NCBI GenBank assembly: GCA_018820745.1
Contig: JAHJNP010000172.1
Location: forward strand, 1-14,233
Direction of reading: 5' to 3'
Length of the DNA: 14,233 bases
Origin: Gammaproteobacteria bacterium
Lineage (GTDB): Bacteria; Pseudomonadota; Gammaproteobacteria; Burkholderiales; Thiobacillaceae
Shown: positions 6,165 to 14,233 of the stretch, in pieces
Layout: every line of letters begins with the position of its first letter
How positions within the stretch are numbered: the stretch's first letter is position 1
Notes under the pieces: model-generated
Told to the model about the DNA's origin: nothing
Seen by the model: the letters and a program-made list of their open reading frames with translations, nothing else
Databases searched by the model: none
Position numbers and translations under genes: made by a program

Positions 6165-6581
6165 ATGGAATCCAGATTGCTTGTTGTGCTGCTGGCCACC
6201 GCGCTGGCACCGGCCCTGATCGGCTGCGAAACCGGTCCGCGCTATGGCGAGGTCGCGGTGCGCGACCCGCACTACTCGGCGAGGGTGGTGTTTACCGATC
6301 ATGACCGCCGCCTGATTCATGACTATTACGAACCGCGCTACAAGAAACTACCCCCTGGCCAGGTCAAGAAGGGCCGGCTTCCCCCCGGCCATGCCTGGCG
6401 GGTAAGGCATGGCCAGCGAATCAGCGATGACGCGCAATTGCGCTACCTTCCTTATGCGCTGGATCAACGCCTTTCGCGACTGCCGCCGGAGTATGTGCGC
6501 GTCATCATCGGCACCGATGTGGTGATCATGAATACGCGTACCCGTGTGGTGGTGGACATTCTGGAGGACATCGCCGACTGA
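6165..6581 (+). CDS. RcnB-like lipoprotein of unknown function
   Basis: The 138-aa product has a lipoprotein signal: a hydrophobic stretch of residues 5-18 and a lipobox ALIGC with Cys21, so it is probably membrane-anchored and faces the periplasm. The mature part has the RcnB-type pattern: a [12 protein letters not shown] segment, a second LPPGHAW repeat, [14 protein letters not shown], and a C-terminal [25 protein letters not shown]. coli RcnB is a periplasmic protein linked to nickel/cobalt homeostasis; that role is not shown for this branch. The frame is open far upstream, but only the ATG at 6165 gives the signal sequence and has a purine-rich AAAAGGG about 8 nt before it. Archease follows after 31 bp. 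Confidence 0.75.
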
Positions 6582-6612
6582 GCCGGTGTTGCCGGACAGG
6601 CGTGCATCGGTA

Positions 6613-7059
6613 ATGAACCAGACCGGCGGAACCGCCATGGGTGGGGCGCACTGGGCGCATTTTCCGCACCAGGCCGACATGGGGGTGCGCGGCGTCGGCC
6701 CCACCCTGGCGGCCGCCTTCGAGCAGGCGGCACTGGCGATGACCGCCGTGGTGACCGATCCGGCCAGTGTGGCGCCGGCGCTGGCAGTCGATATCGACTG
6801 CGAGGCGCCGGACGACGAGTTGCTGCTGGTCGACTGGCTCAACGCGCTGATCCTCGAGATGGCGGCGCGCCACATGCTGTTCAGCCGCTTCGAAGTCGGC
6901 CTTGACGGGCGTCATCTGCATGCCACCGCCTGGGGCGAGGCGGTGGACATCGAAAAGCACCAGCCGGTCGTCGAAATCAAGGGCGCCACCTACACTGAAC
7001 TGAAAGTGGTGCGGGACGAATCCGGGCGGTGGCTGGCCCAGTGCGTGGTGGATGTGTGA
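6613..7059 (+). CDS. Archease, RtcB cofactor
   Basis: Small cytoplasmic protein that speeds guanylylation and turnover of the RNA ligase RtcB and broadens its nucleotide use. From the ATG at 6613 the product is 148 aa, close to the ~140 aa of the family. Family features seen: [12 protein letters not shown] with the N-terminal metal-binding Asp, [15 protein letters not shown], the acidic [14 protein letters not shown] segment, and the C-terminal [11 protein letters not shown] motif. An internal ATG at 6637, preceded by GGCGGA, is an equally possible start and would remove eight poorly conserved residues. The stop codon lies next to the rtcB start region, so the two are almost certainly co-transcribed. 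Confidence 0.88.
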
Positions 7060-7060
7060 A

Positions 7061-8491
7061 ATGGATCTAGCTCAGCTCAAGCAGGTGTCGGATGTCGAGT
7101 GGCGCATCGCGCCGTTCGGGAAAATGCGTGTGCCGGCGGTGATCTATGCCGATCAGGCATTGATCAGCGAAATGGACGACAAGGTGTTCGAGCAGATCAC
7201 CAATGTCGCCACGCTGCCGGGGATCGTCCAGGCCGCCTATGCCATGCCCGACGCACACTGGGGCTACGGCTTCCCGATCGGCGGGGTGGCGGCGTTCGAT
7301 GCCGACGCGGGCGGCGTGGTATCGGCCGGCGGGGTGGGGTTCGACATCTCCTGCGGCGTGCGCACCCTGCATACCGGACTCAAGGCCGCAGACATCGCGC
7401 CGCTCAAGCAGCGGCTCGCCGACCGGCTGTTCACCCATATTCCGGCAGGCGTCGGCAGCACCGGCCCGTTGCGCCTCGACGCCGGCGAGATGGACGCGAT
7501 GCTGCGCGGCGGCGCGCGCTGGGCGGTCGAGCACGGCTACGGTAGCGAGGCCGACCTCGATCGCATCGAGGAGCATGGCTGTATGGCCGGCGCCGAGCCG
7601 AACCGGGTGTCCGAGCACGCCAAGCGCCGCCAGCGCGACGAGATCGGCACCCTCGGCTCCGGCAACCATTACCTCGAACTGCAGGAAATCGTCGAAATCT
7701 ACGACACGAAAGCAGCCGACCGCTTCCGCCTGCGCCAGGGCGAGGTGGTGGTCAGCATCCATTGCGGATCGCGCGGACTGGGGCACCAGATCGGTACCGA
7801 ATTCCTCAAGCAGATGGTGATCTCCGCGCCCGGTTACGGCATCGACTTGCCCGACCGCGAGCTCGCCTGCGCGCCCATTCACTCGCCTGTCGGCCAGGCC
7901 TATCTCGGCGCCATGCGCGCGGCGGTCAACTGCGCCCTGGCCAACCGCCAGGTCATCACCCACCTCACCCGCAAGGTGTTCGCCGACCTCATTCCGGGCA
8001 CGCATCTCAGCCTGATCTACGACGTCTCGCACAACACCTGCAAGGAGGAATGGCATACGGTGGACGGTCAGACGCGCCGCCTGTATGTGCACCGCAAGGG
8101 CGCGACGCGCGCCTTCGGCCCGGGCCATCCGAGCCTGCCCGGCGAGTTACGCGATATCGGCCAGCCGGTGCTGATCGGCGGCAGCATGGGCACCGCGTCC
8201 TACATCCTCGTCGGCACCGAGGAAGGCATGTCGCGCGCCTTCAGCTCCGCCTGCCACGGTGCCGGACGTTCCATGAGCCGTCATCAGGCCACCCGCCAGT
8301 GGCACGGCCGGGCGTTGGTGGACGAGCTCGCCAGCCAGGGCATATTGATCCGCAGCCCCTCGCTGCGGGGCGTGGCGGAAGAAGCCCCCGGCGCCTACAA
8401 GGACGTCAGCGCGGTGGTGGAAGCGGCCGACCGGGCCGGGCTGGCGCGCAAGGTGGCCAAGCTGAAGCCGCTGGTCTGTATCAAGGGCTGA
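7061..8491 (+). CDS. rtcB: RNA-splicing ligase RtcB (3'-phosphate/5'-OH ligase)
   Basis: GTP- and Mn2+-dependent ligase that joins RNA ends bearing 3'-phosphate (or 2',3'-cyclic phosphate) and 5'-OH, as in repair of cleaved tRNA or rRNA. All active-site residues are seen and several fall at the same numbers as in the Pyrococcus enzyme: D95 and C98 (FDISCG), N202-H203 (GSGNHYLE), H234 (SIHCGSRGLGHQ), H324 (DVSHN), and the guanylylated H399 in ACHGAGRSMSRHQ. The 476-aa length is normal. An in-frame ATG at 7052 overlaps the archease stop, but the ATG at 7061 gives the usual MDL-type N terminus and just clears it. No RtcA cyclase or RtcR regulator gene is in the window. Confidence 0.95.
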   Translation: MDLAQLKQVSDVEWRIAPFGKMRVPAVIYADQALISEMDDKVFEQITNVATLPGIVQAAYAMPDAHWGYGFPIGGVAAFDADAGGVVSAGGVGFDISCGVRTLHTGLKAADIAPLKQRLADRLFTHIPAGVGSTGPLRLDAGEMDAMLRGGARWAVEHGYGSEADLDRIEEHGCMAGAEPNRVSEHAKRRQRDEIGTLGSGNHYLELQEIVEIYDTKAADRFRLRQGEVVVSIHCGSRGLGHQIGTEFLKQMVISAPGYGIDLPDRELACAPIHSPVGQAYLGAMRAAVNCALANRQVITHLTRKVFADLIPGTHLSLIYDVSHNTCKEEWHTVDGQTRRLYVHRKGATRAFGPGHPSLPGELRDIGQPVLIGGSMGTASYILVGTEEGMSRAFSSACHGAGRSMSRHQATRQWHGRALVDELASQGILIRSPSLRGVAEEAPGAYKDVSAVVEAADRAGLARKVAKLKPLVCIKG

Positions 8492-9837: not shown

Positions 9838-10422
9838 TCAATCGTTCCACTTGTTGCGGCTGTTGTTCCAGCGCTCGCCGCGCTGATCCTCGGCCACGGA
9901 AAAGCTCACATTCAGGGTCAGCCATTTTCCCGGGTCGTAGGGCAGGCGGGTGCTGTATTCGTGGCCCTGGAAGCGGTAGCGCACGTCGTAGCCGTTGACC
10001 ACCTGGCGGAAGTTGTCCTGGGTGCGGCAGCGTTCCACCTGCTGCGGGCGCGACTCGTAACGGGTGCCTCCGTCGTTCCAGCGGTCGCCCACCACGGCGC
10101 CGGTGGCGGCGCCGACTGCGGCGGCGGCAACCCGGCCGTTGCCCTTGCCGACGGTGGAACCGATCAGGCCGCCGGCGATGGCGCCGAGAATCGCGCCGCC
10201 GCCGTTGTTGCTCTCCCGGTAGCCTTGGGTCTCGTAACCGACGGTTTCGGTCCAGCACTCGCGGCGCGGCTCGTTGATCGTCTCGAAGACCGGCGTGCTG
10301 GCCAGAACCTGGGCGCGGGCGGTGAAGCCGTCGCTGTTGCCACGGCCGGGCCCCGCTTGCGCTGCGCCGCTGGCGGCCAGCAGTGCGGCAATCAGGGTGA
10401 TGTTCAGGGTGCGTGATTTCAT
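9838..10422 (-). CDS. Glycine-zipper 2TM-domain outer-membrane/periplasmic protein
   Basis: The 194-aa product has a signal peptide (hydrophobic residues 8-20, cleavage near AQA-GP at 23). The glycine-zipper hairpin at about 73-113 (GGGAILGAIAGGLIGSTVG, then AAAAVGAATGAVVGDR) is as in 17-kDa-antigen-like and related envelope proteins. Two cysteines, C56 and C132, flank the zipper and could form a disulfide. The C-terminal part (YDVRYRFQGHEYSTRLPYDPG and a LTLNVSFSV strand) is the usual tail of the proteobacterial branch. Only the ATG at 10422 gives a signal peptide; it has AAGGAGAG 6-8 nt upstream. It is the middle gene of the minus-strand group, 34 bp after the 96-aa gene. Function in the family is not settled; an envelope-integrity role is inferred. 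Confidence 0.85.
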   Translation of the reverse strand: MKSRTLNITLIAALLAASGAAQAGPGRGNSDGFTARAQVLASTPVFETINEPRRECWTETVGYETQGYRESNNGGGAILGAIAGGLIGSTVGKGNGRVAAAAVGAATGAVVGDRWNDGGTRYESRPQQVERCRTQDNFRQVVNGYDVRYRFQGHEYSTRLPYDPGKWLTLNVSFSVAEDQRGERWNNSRNKWND

Positions 10423-10456
10423 CGTTACTCTCCTTGTTGCATCAAATCGATCGGGT

Positions 10457-10747
10457 TCAGCGACGGTCGCGTGAGCGGCTGTCATCTTCCCTTCGCTGCT
10501 TTTGCTTCTGCTGGCGACGTTCGTAGCCGTAACCGTAGCCTTGCGGCTCCTCGGCCTCGGCTTCACGCTTGGTGGCGCGGCGTTCGTCCCTGCGGGCATC
10601 ACGCTGACCCGGGCGAACCTCGTCGCCACGGTCGCGCTGGGCCACGACGAACGCGCCGTCCATCCAATCCGGGGCGGCCTGAACCGGGGCGGCCAGCGCC
10701 AGTCCCAGTGCGGTCAGTCCGAAAATCCAAAGTTGTCGTGTGTTCAT
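10457..10747 (-). CDS. Small exported, highly charged protein
   Basis: Not recognised as a named family. The 96-aa product starts with a signal peptide (LWIFGLTALGLALAAPVQA-AP, cleavage near residue 24). A short DWMDGAFVVAQRDRG segment and then a long mixed-charge, Arg/Glu/Asp/Gln-rich tail follow, with GYGYGYERR in the middle and SRSRDRR at the end. The frame is open far upstream, but only the ATG at 10747 combines the signal peptide with a ribosome site (TGGAG about 8 nt before); an ATG four codons earlier is less likely. It is the first gene of the minus-strand exported-protein group and is divergent from the response regulator gene across a 153-bp gap. Composition resembles the tail of the 130-aa protein in the same group. 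Confidence 0.7.
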   Translation of the reverse strand: MNTRQLWIFGLTALGLALAAPVQAAPDWMDGAFVVAQRDRGDEVRPGQRDARRDERRATKREAEAEEPQGYGYGYERRQQKQKQRREDDSRSRDRR

Positions 10748-10900: not shown

Positions 10901-11614
10901 ATGGAAAAAGACGTGATTTACGTAACCGACGACGACCCCGGCATTCGCGAACTGGTGGCCGAATACCTGACGGGCCAGGGCTACGCAGTCGAGACCGCTG
11001 AAGACGCGGTCTCGCTCGATCGCCTGCTCGCCGCCCGGCTGCCCGACCTCTTGGTGCTCGACTGGATGATGCCGGGCGAGGATGGCCTGTCGGTGGCGCG
11101 GCGGCTGCGTGCGCAGCCTGGATTTCCGCCCATCATCATGCTGTCGGCCAAGGGCGAGGACATCGACCGCATCATCGGCCTCGAAGTCGGCGCCGACGAT
11201 TACCTGCCCAAGCCCTTCAATCCGCGCGAGCTGCTGGCGCGCATCCGCGCGGTGATGCGGCGGTACGAGGGGACAGCCGCGCCGGCCGCGGCCGAAACTG
11301 CGCGGCGGGTGCATTTCGGCCCGTTCAGCGCCAACCTCGACGCCCGCACGCTCAGCCGCGACGGCGCGGAAATCACGCTGACCAGCGGCGAATACGAGTT
11401 GCTGGAAATTTTCGTTACTCATGCCAACCGCGCGCTGTCGCGCGACTGGCTGATGGACCAGCTGCGCGGTTTCGAGCGCGACCCGTTCGACCGCAGCATC
11501 GACGTGCGGGTGAATCGCCTGCGCAAGAAAATCGAGGACGATCCGGCCAATCCGGCCTACATCCGAACCCAGCGCGGGCAGGGTTATCTGTTCGTGCCGC
11601 AGGGAAAAGGATAA
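10901..11614 (+). CDS. OmpR-family DNA-binding response regulator
   Basis: Two-component response regulator of 237 aa, the normal length. The receiver domain (about 1-122) shows the acidic triad D10-D11-D12, the phospho-acceptor D54 in LVLDWMMPGEDG, S82 and K104 in LPKPF. The C-terminal winged helix (about 137-235) has the OmpR/PhoB pattern LTSGEYELLEIFVTHANRALSR, PFDRSIDVRVNRLRKKIEDDP, and the RGQGYLFVP wing. The PFDRSIDVR motif places it nearest OmpR itself. The kinase gene follows after 7 bp. The signal and regulon are unknown; the divergent exported-protein genes are the obvious local target. The product lacks a visible ribosome site and may be translated from a leaderless mRNA. Confidence 0.93.
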   Translation: MEKDVIYVTDDDPGIRELVAEYLTGQGYAVETAEDAVSLDRLLAARLPDLLVLDWMMPGEDGLSVARRLRAQPGFPPIIMLSAKGEDIDRIIGLEVGADDYLPKPFNPRELLARIRAVMRRYEGTAAPAAAETARRVHFGPFSANLDARTLSRDGAEITLTSGEYELLEIFVTHANRALSRDWLMDQLRGFERDPFDRSIDVRVNRLRKKIEDDPANPAYIRTQRGQGYLFVPQGKG

Positions 11615-11621
11615 AGCCGGC

Positions 11622-12896
11622 ATGCGCTCGCTGTTCGCCCGCACCGCGCTGACGCTGGCGCTGGCCTTCATCGTGTTCCAGGTGGCGGCGTTCTGGGTGG
11701 TGTACCGGACCCTGATCGTGCCGGTGGCGGAGCGTTCGGCTGACGACCTGGCCGGACTGGTCGTGCTGTCGGCGCAAACCTGGGTGGAACTGCCGCCCGA
11801 GACGCGGGCGGCGTTCGAGCGCGAGCTGGCGCGCCGCCACGGCCTGCGCCTGACCACCGTCGATGTCGGGGCGACTGCGGACGCGCCGCAGTTTGCGTTT
11901 CGCACCCAGATCGAGGCCGCGCTGAGCCGCCGCGTGGGCGCGGCGGTCGTATTGCGCGGGGTGCCGAATCAAGCGGCAGCGTGGCTGGATATTCCGGTGG
12001 GCGGGCACGACCTGCGGGTCGGCTTTTTCCCCGGCCGCTATGCCGTCGAGCCGCCGCTGGCCGCGATCGCGGTTGTCGCGCTGGGCACGTTTTTCAGTCT
12101 GCTGACCGCCCTGTTTCTGGTGCGCCGCATCACCGTGCCGCTGGCGCGCGCGGCCCAGGCGGCCAGCCAGGTGGGGGCGGGCGAGTTGCCCGAGCCCTTG
12201 CCGGAAACGGGCCCCGCCGAACTCGCCGAACTCGCCCGCCGTTTCAACACCATGGCGGCCGAGGTGCGCGAGCTGCTGGATAACCGCACCACCTTGCTGG
12301 CCGGGATCTCGCACGACCTGCGCACGCCGATGACGCGTCTGCAGCTCAATCTGGAAATGTTGCGCGACGCCCCCAGCCCGGCGCGTATCGACCGCGCGGT
12401 GGCCGATCTGGCCGACATGAACAAGCTGATTACCGGTTACCTGGCGCTGGCGCGCACCACCCAGGCCGAAGCGAAGGTGCGTTTCGATCTGGCGGATTTG
12501 CTGGAAGAAATGGCCGTCGATGCAGGGCTGGCGTGGTCAGGCGCGGGACCATGCCAGGTTGAGGAGGGGCGGCTGGCAGTGCGGCGAATCGTGTCCAACC
12601 TGATCCAGAATGCGCAGCGCTACGGCGGTGGCACACCGGTCGAACTGGCTTTGGAATGTTCGGATAAGTTGGCGCAGGTGATCGTGCGCGATACGGGTGC
12701 GGGTATTCCAGACGATCAGCTGGAAAAGGTGTTCAGGCCGTTTTACCGGCTGGAGACCTCGCGTTCGCAGGTCACGGGGGGGACCGGGCTGGGCTTGGCG
12801 ATCGTGCGCCAGCTGGCGGAAACAAACGGCTGGAAAGTGAAGCTCAGGAACCGTGCGGCAGGCGGCCTGGAGGCCGTGCTTGAAATTCCCCGCTAG
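11622..12896 (+). CDS. EnvZ-type sensor histidine kinase
   Basis: Inner-membrane sensor kinase of 424 aa, paired with the response regulator 7 bp upstream. TM1 is at about residues 8-32. A periplasmic sensor region of about 115 residues follows without cysteines or a recognised fold. TM2 is at about 147-168 (AAIAVVALGTFFSLLTALFL), then HAMP (RRITVPLARAAQ to about 220). The dimerisation/phosphotransfer helix has H231 in LLAGISHDLRTPMTRL. The catalytic ATP domain shows the N box (SNLIQNAQRYGG), the G1 box (VRDTGAGIPDDQ), the F box (FRPFYR) and the G2 box (GTGLGLAIVRQL). All residues needed for kinase activity are present. It converges on the small-ORF pair, whose stop lies 10 bp beyond. Confidence 0.94.
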   Translation: MRSLFARTALTLALAFIVFQVAAFWVVYRTLIVPVAERSADDLAGLVVLSAQTWVELPPETRAAFERELARRHGLRLTTVDVGATADAPQFAFRTQIEAALSRRVGAAVVLRGVPNQAAAWLDIPVGGHDLRVGFFPGRYAVEPPLAAIAVVALGTFFSLLTALFLVRRITVPLARAAQAASQVGAGELPEPLPETGPAELAELARRFNTMAAEVRELLDNRTTLLAGISHDLRTPMTRLQLNLEMLRDAPSPARIDRAVADLADMNKLITGYLALARTTQAEAKVRFDLADLLEEMAVDAGLAWSGAGPCQVEEGRLAVRRIVSNLIQNAQRYGGGTPVELALECSDKLAQVIVRDTGAGIPDDQLEKVFRPFYRLETSRSQVTGGTGLGLAIVRQLAETNGWKVKLRNRAAGGLEAVLEIPR

Positions 12897-12906
12897 GCGG
12901 TCCGGC

Positions 12907-13062
12907 TCAGGTGTAGTAAGGCGTGCTCCGCCGCAGCACCCGGAATTCGATGAACAGCAGCGTCAGGCTGAACATCGACATGCGGTAAGTGCTGCCGCTG
13001 AAAAATCCCAGCGGCGAGCTGGACAGGCTGAGGCTCACGCTGGTTGCTCGACCGACTTGCAT
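12907..13062 (-). CDS. Small ORF 2 of a tandem paralogous pair (51 aa)
   Basis: The family is not recognised. The ATG at 13062-13060 overlaps the TGA of small ORF 1 in the sequence TGATG, so translation is probably coupled. The 51-aa product aligns without gaps to small ORF 1 over 37 residues with about 18 identities, including SxSP, FxGxTxRMS and SLxLLFxxF. This similarity across two frames is the main evidence that it is a real gene. There is no signal peptide or cysteine. Alternating polar/apolar residues (SLSLSSSPL, LLFIEFRVL) suggest beta strands rather than a transmembrane helix. The C terminus is basic and Tyr-rich (RRSTPYYT). A longer open frame runs upstream to 13311, but it would fully overlap small ORF 1. 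Confidence 0.6.
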   Translation of the reverse strand: MQVGRATSVSLSLSSSPLGFFSGSTYRMSMFSLTLLFIEFRVLRRSTPYYT

Positions 13063-13214
13063 CAGAGTGCAGGCTGGCGGGCAAACAGCGAGAACTGCAC
13101 GAACAGCAGCGACAGGCTGGTGAGGCTCATGCGTTCGGTCTGGCCGTGAAACCAGGCGAAAGGCGAGGCGCTGAGTTCGAGAACCAGTTGGTTTTGGCCG
13201 AATTGCAGTTTCAT
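13062..13214 (-). CDS. Small ORF 1 of a tandem paralogous pair (50 aa)
   Basis: The family is not recognised. The 50-aa product starts at the ATG at 13214 with a strong AGGAG six nt upstream (13225-13221). The predicted sigma-54 start point lies about 27 nt before the ATG. The open frame extends upstream to 13343, but that extension would begin before the promoter, so the short form is preferred. The sequence begins MKLQFGQNQLVLELSASPF and continues with WFHGQTERMS and then LTSLSLLFVQFSLFARQ. It shares the SxSP, FxGxTxRMS and SLxLLFxxF positions with small ORF 2. It has no cysteines and no classical signal peptide; hydrophobic and polar residues alternate. The promoter, ribosome site and paralogue together argue for a real, conditionally expressed gene. 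Confidence 0.65.
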   Translation of the reverse strand: MKLQFGQNQLVLELSASPFAWFHGQTERMSLTSLSLLFVQFSLFARQPAL

Positions 13215-13251
13215 GATGCGCTCCTGGGTGAAGGGGGGATGCCTGAATACC

Positions 13252-13267
13252 TGCAATGCCTGTGCCA
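13252..13267 (-). promoter_or_regulatory. Sigma-54 (RpoN) promoter for the small-ORF pair
   Basis: The minus strand reads TGGCACAGGCATTGCA, a TGGCAC-N5-TTGCA pattern preceded by T. The -24 GG (13266-13265) and -12 GC (13254-13253) are separated by exactly 10 bp as RpoN requires. Compared with the consensus YTGGCACG-N4-TTGCW, only the G after TGGCAC differs. The predicted start is near 13241, giving a leader of about 27 nt that contains the AGGAG site of small ORF 1. Confidence 0.75.
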
Positions 13268-13308: not shown

Positions 13309-13321
13309 CAATGGGTTGCCA
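13309..13321. promoter_or_regulatory. Possible IHF site upstream of the sigma-54 promoter
   Basis: CAATGGGTTGCCA agrees with the reverse of the IHF consensus (YAANNNNTTGATW) at all fixed positions except the AT of GAT. It is flanked by an AT-rich run (13290-13311) and lies about 50 bp upstream of the -24 element, between the promoter and the dyads, where IHF normally bends DNA in RpoN systems. A short degenerate site, so weak on its own. Confidence 0.3.
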
Positions 13322-13336
13322 GAGATGGCTTGAGCG

Positions 13337-13406
13337 GCCCCATTGGGGCGGGTGCGCGGGCTGACGGAAAGCCGTCAACCTGTGTCGAAGCGGCAAACAG
13401 TCGACA
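13337..13406. promoter_or_regulatory. Three dyads: candidate upstream activator sites
   Basis: Three inverted repeats lie in the 275-bp gap between the small ORFs and the ABC-F gene: GCCCC-ATT-GGGGC (13337-13349), TGACGG-AAAG-CCGTCA (13362-13377) and TGTCGA-N12-TCGACA (13383-13406). Their centres are about 26 and 25 bp apart, at roughly -102, -128 and -153 from the predicted sigma-54 start, within the usual range for enhancer-binding-protein sites. Their sequences differ from each other, so at most one or two may belong to the same protein. Confidence 0.4.
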
Positions 13407-13489: not shown

Positions 13490-14233
13490 ATGATCATCCT
13501 CAAGAATCTCAGCCTGCGGCGTAGCGCCAAGGTCCTGCTCGACAACGCGTCGGTATCGATCAACCCCGGTGAAAGGGTCGGCCTGGTGGGGCGCAACGGC
13601 GCCGGCAAGTCGAGCCTGTTCGCGCTCCTGAACGGCACCCTGCACGAGGATAAAGGCGACTTTTCCATCCCCTCGCAGTGGCGCATGGCGCAGGTGGCGC
13701 AGGACATGCCGGAAACGGCCGAGTCCGCGACCGATTTCGTCATCGCCGGCGACACCCAGCTGGCGGCGGCGCAGGCCGAGGTGACCGCCGCCGAGGAAAG
13801 CGACGACGGCGAGCGCATGGCGCACGCCTACATGGCGCTGCACGACGCCGGCGCGCACGACGCGCAGTCGCGCGCGCAGTCGCTGATTCTCGGCCTGGGG
13901 TTCCAGGTGCGCGAGCTGAACCAGCCGGTCAACAGCTTTTCCGGCGGCTGGCGCATGCGGCTGCAGCTGGCGCGCGCGCTGATGTGTCCGTCGGAGCTGC
14001 TGCTGCTCGACGAACCGACCAACCACCTGGATATGGACTCGCGCGCCGTCCTCATCGAGGCGTTGCGCCAGTTCGAGGGCTCAGTCGTCTTCATCAGCCA
14101 CGACCGGCACCTGATCAATGCCATCGGTACCAAAGTCATCGAGGTGCGGGACGGTCGTCTGACCCACTACCTCGGGGACTGGGAGTACTACCAGTGGAAG
14201 AAGGGTCAGCAAGTGAAGCCGGCCGTCGCGCCC
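13490..14233 (+). CDS. ABC-F family ATPase, 3' end outside window
   Basis: Soluble ABC-F protein (no membrane domain); the family binds ribosomes or other targets and full members have two ABC domains (~530-640 aa). The visible 248 aa hold one ABC unit: Walker A GRNGAGKSS (about 35-43), the signature FSGGWRMRLQLARAL (about 150-164), Walker B LLLLDEPTNHLD (about 170-181) and the switch His in ISHDRH (about 203). The N terminus and the FSGGWRMRLQLARALMCPSE region resemble the first domain of YheS. After Walker B, however, the sequence (SRAVLIEALRQFEG and then HYLGDWEYYQWKK) resembles a second ABC-F domain; first domains usually continue with WLE-type sequence. The ATG at 13490 fits the family N terminus, though no good ribosome site is seen. 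It is divergent from the small-ORF pair. Confidence 0.85.
   Translation, partial: MIILKNLSLRRSAKVLLDNASVSINPGERVGLVGRNGAGKSSLFALLNGTLHEDKGDFSIPSQWRMAQVAQDMPETAESATDFVIAGDTQLAAAQAEVTAAEESDDGERMAHAYMALHDAGAHDAQSRAQSLILGLGFQVRELNQPVNSFSGGWRMRLQLARALMCPSELLLLDEPTNHLDMDSRAVLIEALRQFEGSVVFISHDRHLINAIGTKVIEVRDGRLTHYLGDWEYYQWKKGQQVKPAVAP

Follow-up and report, generated by a model that had tools for sequence, protein, structure and literature searches.

PEP-CTERM/exosortase is a surface-protein sorting system, and its PEP-CTERM proteins are what the PrsKR/sigma-54 system is known to switch on. A sigma-54-driven small-protein operon in E. coli is phage shock (psp), which encodes helical or membrane proteins, and the MzrA-type connectors of EnvZ/OmpR consist of a single membrane helix. 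In Haft et al. (2006, PMC1569441), PrsK-PrsR and sigma-54 govern the PEP-CTERM/exosortase regulon, PrsR is its sigma-54 activator, and PEP-CTERM genes are reported to carry a sigma-54 motif together with an upstream activator motif; one PEP-CTERM gene was shown to need RpoN (PMC9850573).

Here, we describe two overlapping small genes, ORF1 and ORF2, which we read, at a probability of about 0.55, as a pair in the PrsKR/PEP-CTERM response that is driven by sigma-54 and coupled in translation. Like that regulon, the pair has a sigma-54 element and activator-like upstream sites in its non-coding region, and genomes encoding the small proteins as a rule carry PrsR, with prsKRT close by in the genus g4. 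Differences from the regulon are that a tiny gene, or two, takes the place of a secreted protein, that the products (about 50-102 aa) show no PEP-CTERM domain, and that the main palindrome of the pair, TGACGG-N4-CCGTCA, differs from the published 17-nt PrsR motif ending in TTTACA (motif 1). Small proteins, an enhancer-dependent promoter and an IHF-like site recall the psp operon, but this small-protein family is predicted to be all-beta and is matched by no family model at cut-off. As with MzrA-type connectors, a small gene lies beside an EnvZ-like kinase in most loci; in contrast to them, the pair products have no predicted membrane helix and the kinase linkage is not strict. What goes beyond the preliminary description of the locus, which concerned the two ORFs, is the predicted sigma-54 promoter, the conservation of sites upstream of it and the PrsR co-occurrence. 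The window analysed, from a Thiobacillus that oxidises sulfur, is the whole 14,233-nt stretch of contig JAHJNP010000172.1 (assembly GCA_018820745.1, Gammaproteobacteria bacterium, Thiobacillaceae), and its features are collected in Table 1.

Table 1. Features of the small-gene locus and its neighbours, in window positions.
Feature	Position	Strand	Remarks
OmpR-like response regulator	10901..11614	+	best NCBIfam OmpR, below cut-off
EnvZ-like histidine kinase, convergent neighbour	11622..12896	+	Pfam HAMP, HisKA, HATPase; best NCBIfam EnvZ, below cut-off
ORF2, paralogue of ORF1	12907..13062	-	51 aa
ORF1 stop/ORF2 start overlap TGATG	13060-13064	-	one base common to both codons
ORF1, first of the pair	13062..13214	-	50 aa
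AGGAG ribosome-binding site of ORF1	13221..13225	-	6 nt before the ORF1 ATG
Predicted sigma-54 -24/-12 promoter TGGCAC-N5-TTGC	13253..13267	-	exact match, GG and GC present
IHF-like site CAA-N4-TTG	13309..13318	-	conserved block between the upstream sites and the promoter
Palindrome TGACGG-N4-CCGTCA, possible activator site	13362..13377	.	exact; near -162
Second upstream site, 17-nt block TGTCGAAGCGGCAAACA	13383..13399	+	conserved; TGTCGR half of PEP-CTERM motif 1
ABC-F-like ATPase, divergent neighbour	13490..14233	+	cut by window end; Pfam ABC_tran; best NCBIfam ABC-F, below cut-off for the fragment

The two minus-strand ORFs joined by TGATG, and the AGGAG before ORF1, were found in the sequence as the preliminary description had claimed, and a hand count returned the same 18 ungapped identities over 37 positions. 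GGAG or AGGA stands at the ORF1 ribosome-binding position in 50 of 52 distinct pair loci; these are the 57 loci read minus the second fetches L081-L084 and L086, which the upstream-motif, overlap and IHF counts leave out too. The likeness of ORF1 and ORF2 goes beyond chance, because BLASTP aligned them with 13/27 identical residues (E 5e-8, for one comparison) and a profile-profile comparison over 49 columns gave a probability of 98% (E 1.1e-13). The proposal that the genes are tandem paralogues from an old duplication held at the protein level is supported.

Both frames were open in all 57 ORF1 loci read in relatives, and ORF2 lay downstream of ORF1 in every one; five of the 57 repeat a place already fetched. 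Across 46 Thiobacillus loci, the median pairwise dN/dS was 0.125 for ORF1 and 0.238 for ORF2. Substitutions in relatives thus show a strong frame bias, with dN/dS well below 1 in both ORFs, as had been anticipated. The remaining frames gave 0.76 to 4.6, save one antisense frame per ORF (0.235 and 0.333), whose low value probably arises because its third positions lie opposite the third positions of the coding frame. Mean variability at codon positions 1, 2 and 3 was 0.086, 0.028 and 0.241 in ORF1 and 0.199, 0.088 and 0.298 in ORF2. ORF1 and ORF2 evolve as protein-coding genes. They are probably also made together, as had been suggested, with an ATG overlapping the ORF1 stop by one base in 43/52 distinct loci. 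Poor annotation of such genes was borne out as well: among the matches listed (120/152), names read 'hypothetical' or 'uncharacterized'. Many of the listed database entries exceed 50 aa, and the over-long ones were probably called from an upstream start.

Among 117 genomes of the bacterial family, ORF1 was found in 53, comprising 48/56 of the genus Thiobacillus, three of g4 and two of g12. The kinase match lay at a contig edge in three of the eight pairless Thiobacillus genomes (G072, G073 and G077), and in two others (G056 and G105) the ABC-F gene comes directly after the kinase gene and the pair is missing. Two sequences, each from one contig and each possibly an error, have another layout: the metagenome protein P0242 combines the two ORFs in one continuous frame (g4 type), and P0108 resembles an in-frame deletion between the two paralogues.

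More distant relatives widened the family. A second branch, MTLxLTPSLTIRIRR..., was spotted by eye at the same kinase-adjacent place in a g6 genome, and was found in g5, g6, g7 and g11, in 24/117 family genomes at E 0.001 or better. With G077 and G039 (E above 0.001) left out, the small-protein set comprises 77 genomes. Profile comparison linked this branch with the other members: A5 and A4 matched at a probability of 94.7% (E 5.7e-8), and A5 gave weaker values against A1 alone (61.8%) and A2 alone (36.3%). In g95, which belongs to another family of the order, a profile search returned single-copy relatives of 61 aa or more, and a single-sequence search placed them in 8/8 genomes of g95 and in 0/2 of the sister genus g61. 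The small-protein family has members in Thiobacillus, g4, g12, four further genera of the bacterial family and two further families. Six of seven weak matches in the order had no promoter near the match and were rejected; among them, PrsR was over cut-off in G142 and G215 and below it in G242. The seventh, in G144 (family f29), is described with the promoter below. A profile search of 369 genomes across the class gave five weak places outside the window's genome, none with a sigma-54 score of at least 13; for that reason none was accepted. A tblastn search of phage and plasmid records with ORF1 (P0001) returned no relative, nor did a search of viral contigs (IMG/VR) with the ORF1 profile A1.

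In a tree of 25 members, one branch (84/93; found in 90% of bootstrap trees) separates the ORF1s of three genera from the rest, and the duplication thus probably predates the split of these genera. ORF2 does not form one group in the same tree, and 10/22 forks are open. Since the relatives in six other genera (g5, g6, g7, g11, g95 and g40) are single-copy where read, except in one genome, the paired state need not be ancestral. G033, of the single-copy branch, holds its own tandem duplicate (L170, 2142-2505), and a single sigma-54 element precedes the first copy.

The promoter site is the sole match in the window at up to one mismatch, where 1.8 would be expected by chance; the weight of the call lies in its fixed place in 89/90 upstreams against 3/748 controls, not in the window match itself. 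The 90 upstreams, each of up to 300 bp, came from the window, 57 pair loci, 25 g5-g7/g11 loci and seven g95 loci, five being second fetches. In 89/90 the sigma-54 score was 13 or more (maximum 15.5), a level reached by 8% of random 300-mers. The element ended 26-44 nt 5' of the start codon in 89/90, the exception to this placement being the second gene of the G033 tandem, for which the best site is the promoter of the first gene. The controls were mechanical ORFs of at least 150 aa in stretches of G053. Members of g95 sited away from the kinase retain the promoter. We conclude that sigma-54 is very probably used in the cell at the predicted promoter, which would place the transcription start at about 13241. 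The fixed promoter is also a route to divergent members missed by sequence search. The G144 member, with a sequence match of E 0.005 only, was recognised in this way, after the 15 order-sample genomes discussed below: its sigma-54 element ends 42 nt before the start, and the genome has PrsR.

Further upstream, the Thiobacillus non-coding footprints comprise the promoter, the IHF-like site, the palindrome and a TGTCGA/TCGACA block near -190. Upstream-motif and IHF counts leave out L160 (short) and the second G033 copy in addition to L081-L084 and L086. Of the 48 distinct Thiobacillus upstreams, 43 carry the palindrome exactly or with one mismatch (hand count), and variants such as TGTCGGAATTCCGTCG occupy a similar place in part of g7; in the window, 1.07 matches at up to two mismatches are expected by chance. 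The form TGWCGGN4CCGWCA occurred once per genome, before the pair, in 4/4 Thiobacillus genomes scanned and in 0/3 others, and for this reason the palindrome is not common to Thiobacillus PEP-CTERM genes. The consensus applied to 13309..13318 and its relatives, which we take to be that of IHF, was matched with at most one mismatch in 29/48 Thiobacillus, 3/5 g4/g12, 6/7 g95 and 2/23 g5-g7/g11 upstreams, against a chance level of 2% of random 85-mers; at two mismatches, g5-g7/g11 gave 8/23 versus 16% of random pieces.

The 17-nt block is likened to PEP-CTERM motif 1 as a resemblance only. TGTCGR or its complement was present upstream in Thiobacillus (37/48), g4/g12 (5/5), g5-g7/g11 (15/23), g95 (5/7) and g40 (0/1), and in 24% of random stretches. 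The fuller motif TGTCGR-N5-TTTACA, at 9/12 or more, was matched in 36/48 Thiobacillus, 3/7 g95 and 3/23 g5-g7/g11 upstreams (random, 9.4%), with varying strand, place and spacing; the g5-g7/g11 matches are hardly commoner than chance. In 4/7 g95 upstreams, the best motif-1 match is a block like TGTCGACGATTCGAACA about 65 nt before the promoter, close to the mean motif 1 to sigma-54 distance of 62.8 nt given by Haft et al. (PMC1569441). PEP-CTERM genes were sought by regex in 25 stretches (0.5 Mb) of one genome, giving three matches, two apparently genuine. In G053, the motif takes the forms TGTCGGCGGTTTTTACA and CGTCGGAAAACTTTACT at two PEP-CTERM-like genes, scoring 12 and 10 of 12. A stricter scan of five stretches for PEP-CTERM genes behind a sigma-54 site found none. 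The upstream of the G053 pair (L087) has an extra TGTCGGCATTTTTTACG, similar to motif 1, that lies about 21 nt ahead of the promoter.

PrsR, called by TIGR02915 over cut-off, was present in 85/117 family genomes: 74/77 of those with the small protein versus 11/40 of those without it (Fisher p 3e-15, uncorrected for kinship). Three genomes had the small protein only and 29 had neither; the three were G015, G061 and G076, with a partial PrsR match in G061. The corresponding Thiobacillus counts were 46 with both, two with the small protein only, five with PrsR only and three with neither (p 0.017, uncorrected for kinship), and in g12 the same 2/9 genomes carry both. G056 and G105 are PrsR-negative as well as pairless, at only 75% and 79% genome completeness; some of the absences may not be real, several genomes being incomplete. 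In the order sample the PrsR base rate was 100/399, and all 15 small-protein genomes were positive, seven of these being already among the family's 77 and eight belonging to one genus; G144 made a sixteenth. Both g61 genomes had PrsR, and no small protein was found in them. The gene order in G004 (g4) is regulator, kinase, pair, glyS, prsT, prsR, prsK. Matches to TIGR00211, TIGR02917, TIGR02915 and TIGR02916 confirm glyS and the three prs genes, respectively, and the distance from the pair to the start of prsT-prsR-prsK is about 6 kb. In G003, PrsR lies on the same contig as the pair. On balance, these associations favour PrsR as the activator of the pair.

AlphaFold2 modelled ORF1 with five strands and no helix (mean pLDDT 86), and P0128, a 51-aa close relative of the window's ORF2, with four strands and no helix (mean pLDDT 89). 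ORF1 and the ORF2 relative are accordingly predicted to be small all-beta proteins, and their models contain no transmembrane helix. None of the features of a PEP-CTERM protein (C-terminal PEP motif, membrane stretch, basic end, N-terminal signal peptide) was seen by eye. A PDB sequence search gave one match, at E 0.69, and structural comparison against solved folds gave no clear match. Pfam, NCBIfam and PHROGs returned no match for ORF1 (P0001) or ORF2 (P0002), and PADLOC models none for five family members. Six other members had no Pfam or NCBIfam match at cut-off and a single Pfam match below it (ApaLI-like, E 0.05). The claim of an unrecognised family stands: in every branch tested, all Pfam and NCBIfam models stayed below cut-off. 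The literature searched on PEP-CTERM/exosortase, EnvZ and Thiobacillus small proteins yielded no description of such proteins. As far as these searches of literature and family libraries go, the small-protein family and its tie to sigma-54/PrsKR are new; the sigma-54 promoter class and the PrsKR system are already known.

In the reading we prefer, ORF1 and ORF2 would form one small operon. A surface or exopolysaccharide signal would pass through PrsK to PrsR, or to a closely linked sigma-54 activator, which would bind the sites about 150-190 bp upstream. IHF would bend the DNA between these sites and the promoter, and sigma-54 RNA polymerase would start about 27 nt before ORF1. Translation of ORF1 from AGGAG, and of ORF2 by stop-start coupling, would let the products appear together. 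Both proteins, for which no helix is predicted and inspection by eye shows no signal peptide, would fold alike into a short antiparallel beta-sheet and would most likely form a cytoplasmic hetero-oligomer serving the PEP-CTERM/exosortase exopolysaccharide response. Taken separately, we give an ORF1-ORF2 hetero-oligomer an even chance, and a role of the pair in the PEP-CTERM/exosortase response might be judged either way. More speculatively, and with odds somewhat against it, the pair may belong to the XrtA/PEP-CTERM response as its first small-protein effectors that are not secreted. In that case the two tiny beta proteins, driven by sigma-54 and coupled in translation, would make up a hetero-oligomer that probably acts as an exopolysaccharide-export feedback or assembly factor and that derives from a single-gene homo-oligomer persisting in related genera. 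If the preferred reading is true, a small-protein family in three bacterial families is an unlisted output of the PrsKR/sigma-54 system, and the single and paired forms would show in a simple setting how a small homo-oligomer becomes a hetero-oligomer. The PrsR co-occurrence and the promoter give an unannotated gene pair a testable role.

Sigma-54 control might instead be exerted by another, dedicated enhancer-binding protein, with the PrsR link reflecting shared inheritance in the same lineages. Such a protein would suit a palindrome confined to a single site per genome, in front of the pair, the weak agreement of several genera with the published PrsR motif, and the PrsR-positive genomes that lack the small protein (11/117 family genomes and both of g61); the co-occurrence figures, moreover, cover PrsR alone among sigma-54 activators. 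We nevertheless consider it unlikely, given the joint absences within genera (only the same 2/9 genomes of g12 have both, and three Thiobacillus genomes lack both), the 15/15 PrsR-positive genomes of the order sample and the proximity of prsKRT in g4. A partnership with the neighbouring genes, in which the small proteins act on the EnvZ-like kinase or the OmpR-like regulator like enterobacterial connectors, seems improbable, although the pair is convergent with this kinase in 46/52 distinct loci (two of the other six end soon after the pair), relatives adjoin the kinase in 28/29 single-copy-branch loci (several being second fetches of one genome), and G066, G069 and G102, without a close kinase match, are also without the pair. 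It is weakened because four genomes (G091, G065, G096 and G097) keep the pair with the kinase about 7 kb off or on another contig, and because g95 keeps the promoter elsewhere, two of the g95 relatives read sitting near glycerate genes. Conversely, the kinase occurs without the pair in G056, G105 and G111 and in g2, g3 and g10 genomes, and MzrA-type connectors have a transmembrane helix, which is not predicted here.

The main product could also be RNA, a sigma-54 transcript running through the pair and antisense to the 3' end of the kinase gene, with the ORFs of minor use. The kinase and ORF2 stops are indeed 10 bp apart, and the sole minus-strand terminator-like site between 12500 and 13560 is inside ORF2. 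Strong protein-level selection in both frames, retention of the promoter by members away from the kinase, and the lack of any Rfam match over the gathering score make this account very improbable. A toxin-antitoxin or other mobile pair is scarcely credible: two tiny overlapping genes missing from some relatives would fit, but these two are paralogues of one predicted fold, occupy mostly one chromosomal place, and have no ORF1 match in phage or plasmid records or viral contigs and none in PHROGs or PADLOC.

Some further features of the surroundings were recorded. The g95 relatives at L103 and L105 have glycerate dehydrogenase- and kinase-like genes as neighbours, identified by eye from the translations. 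In the window, 9838-10629 on the minus strand encodes a glycine-zipper protein; close to it on that strand, inspection by eye shows further small, basic proteins that seem to be exported. On the plus strand, 6544-8491 holds overlapping genes that presumably correspond to archease and RtcB RNA ligase, which they resemble.
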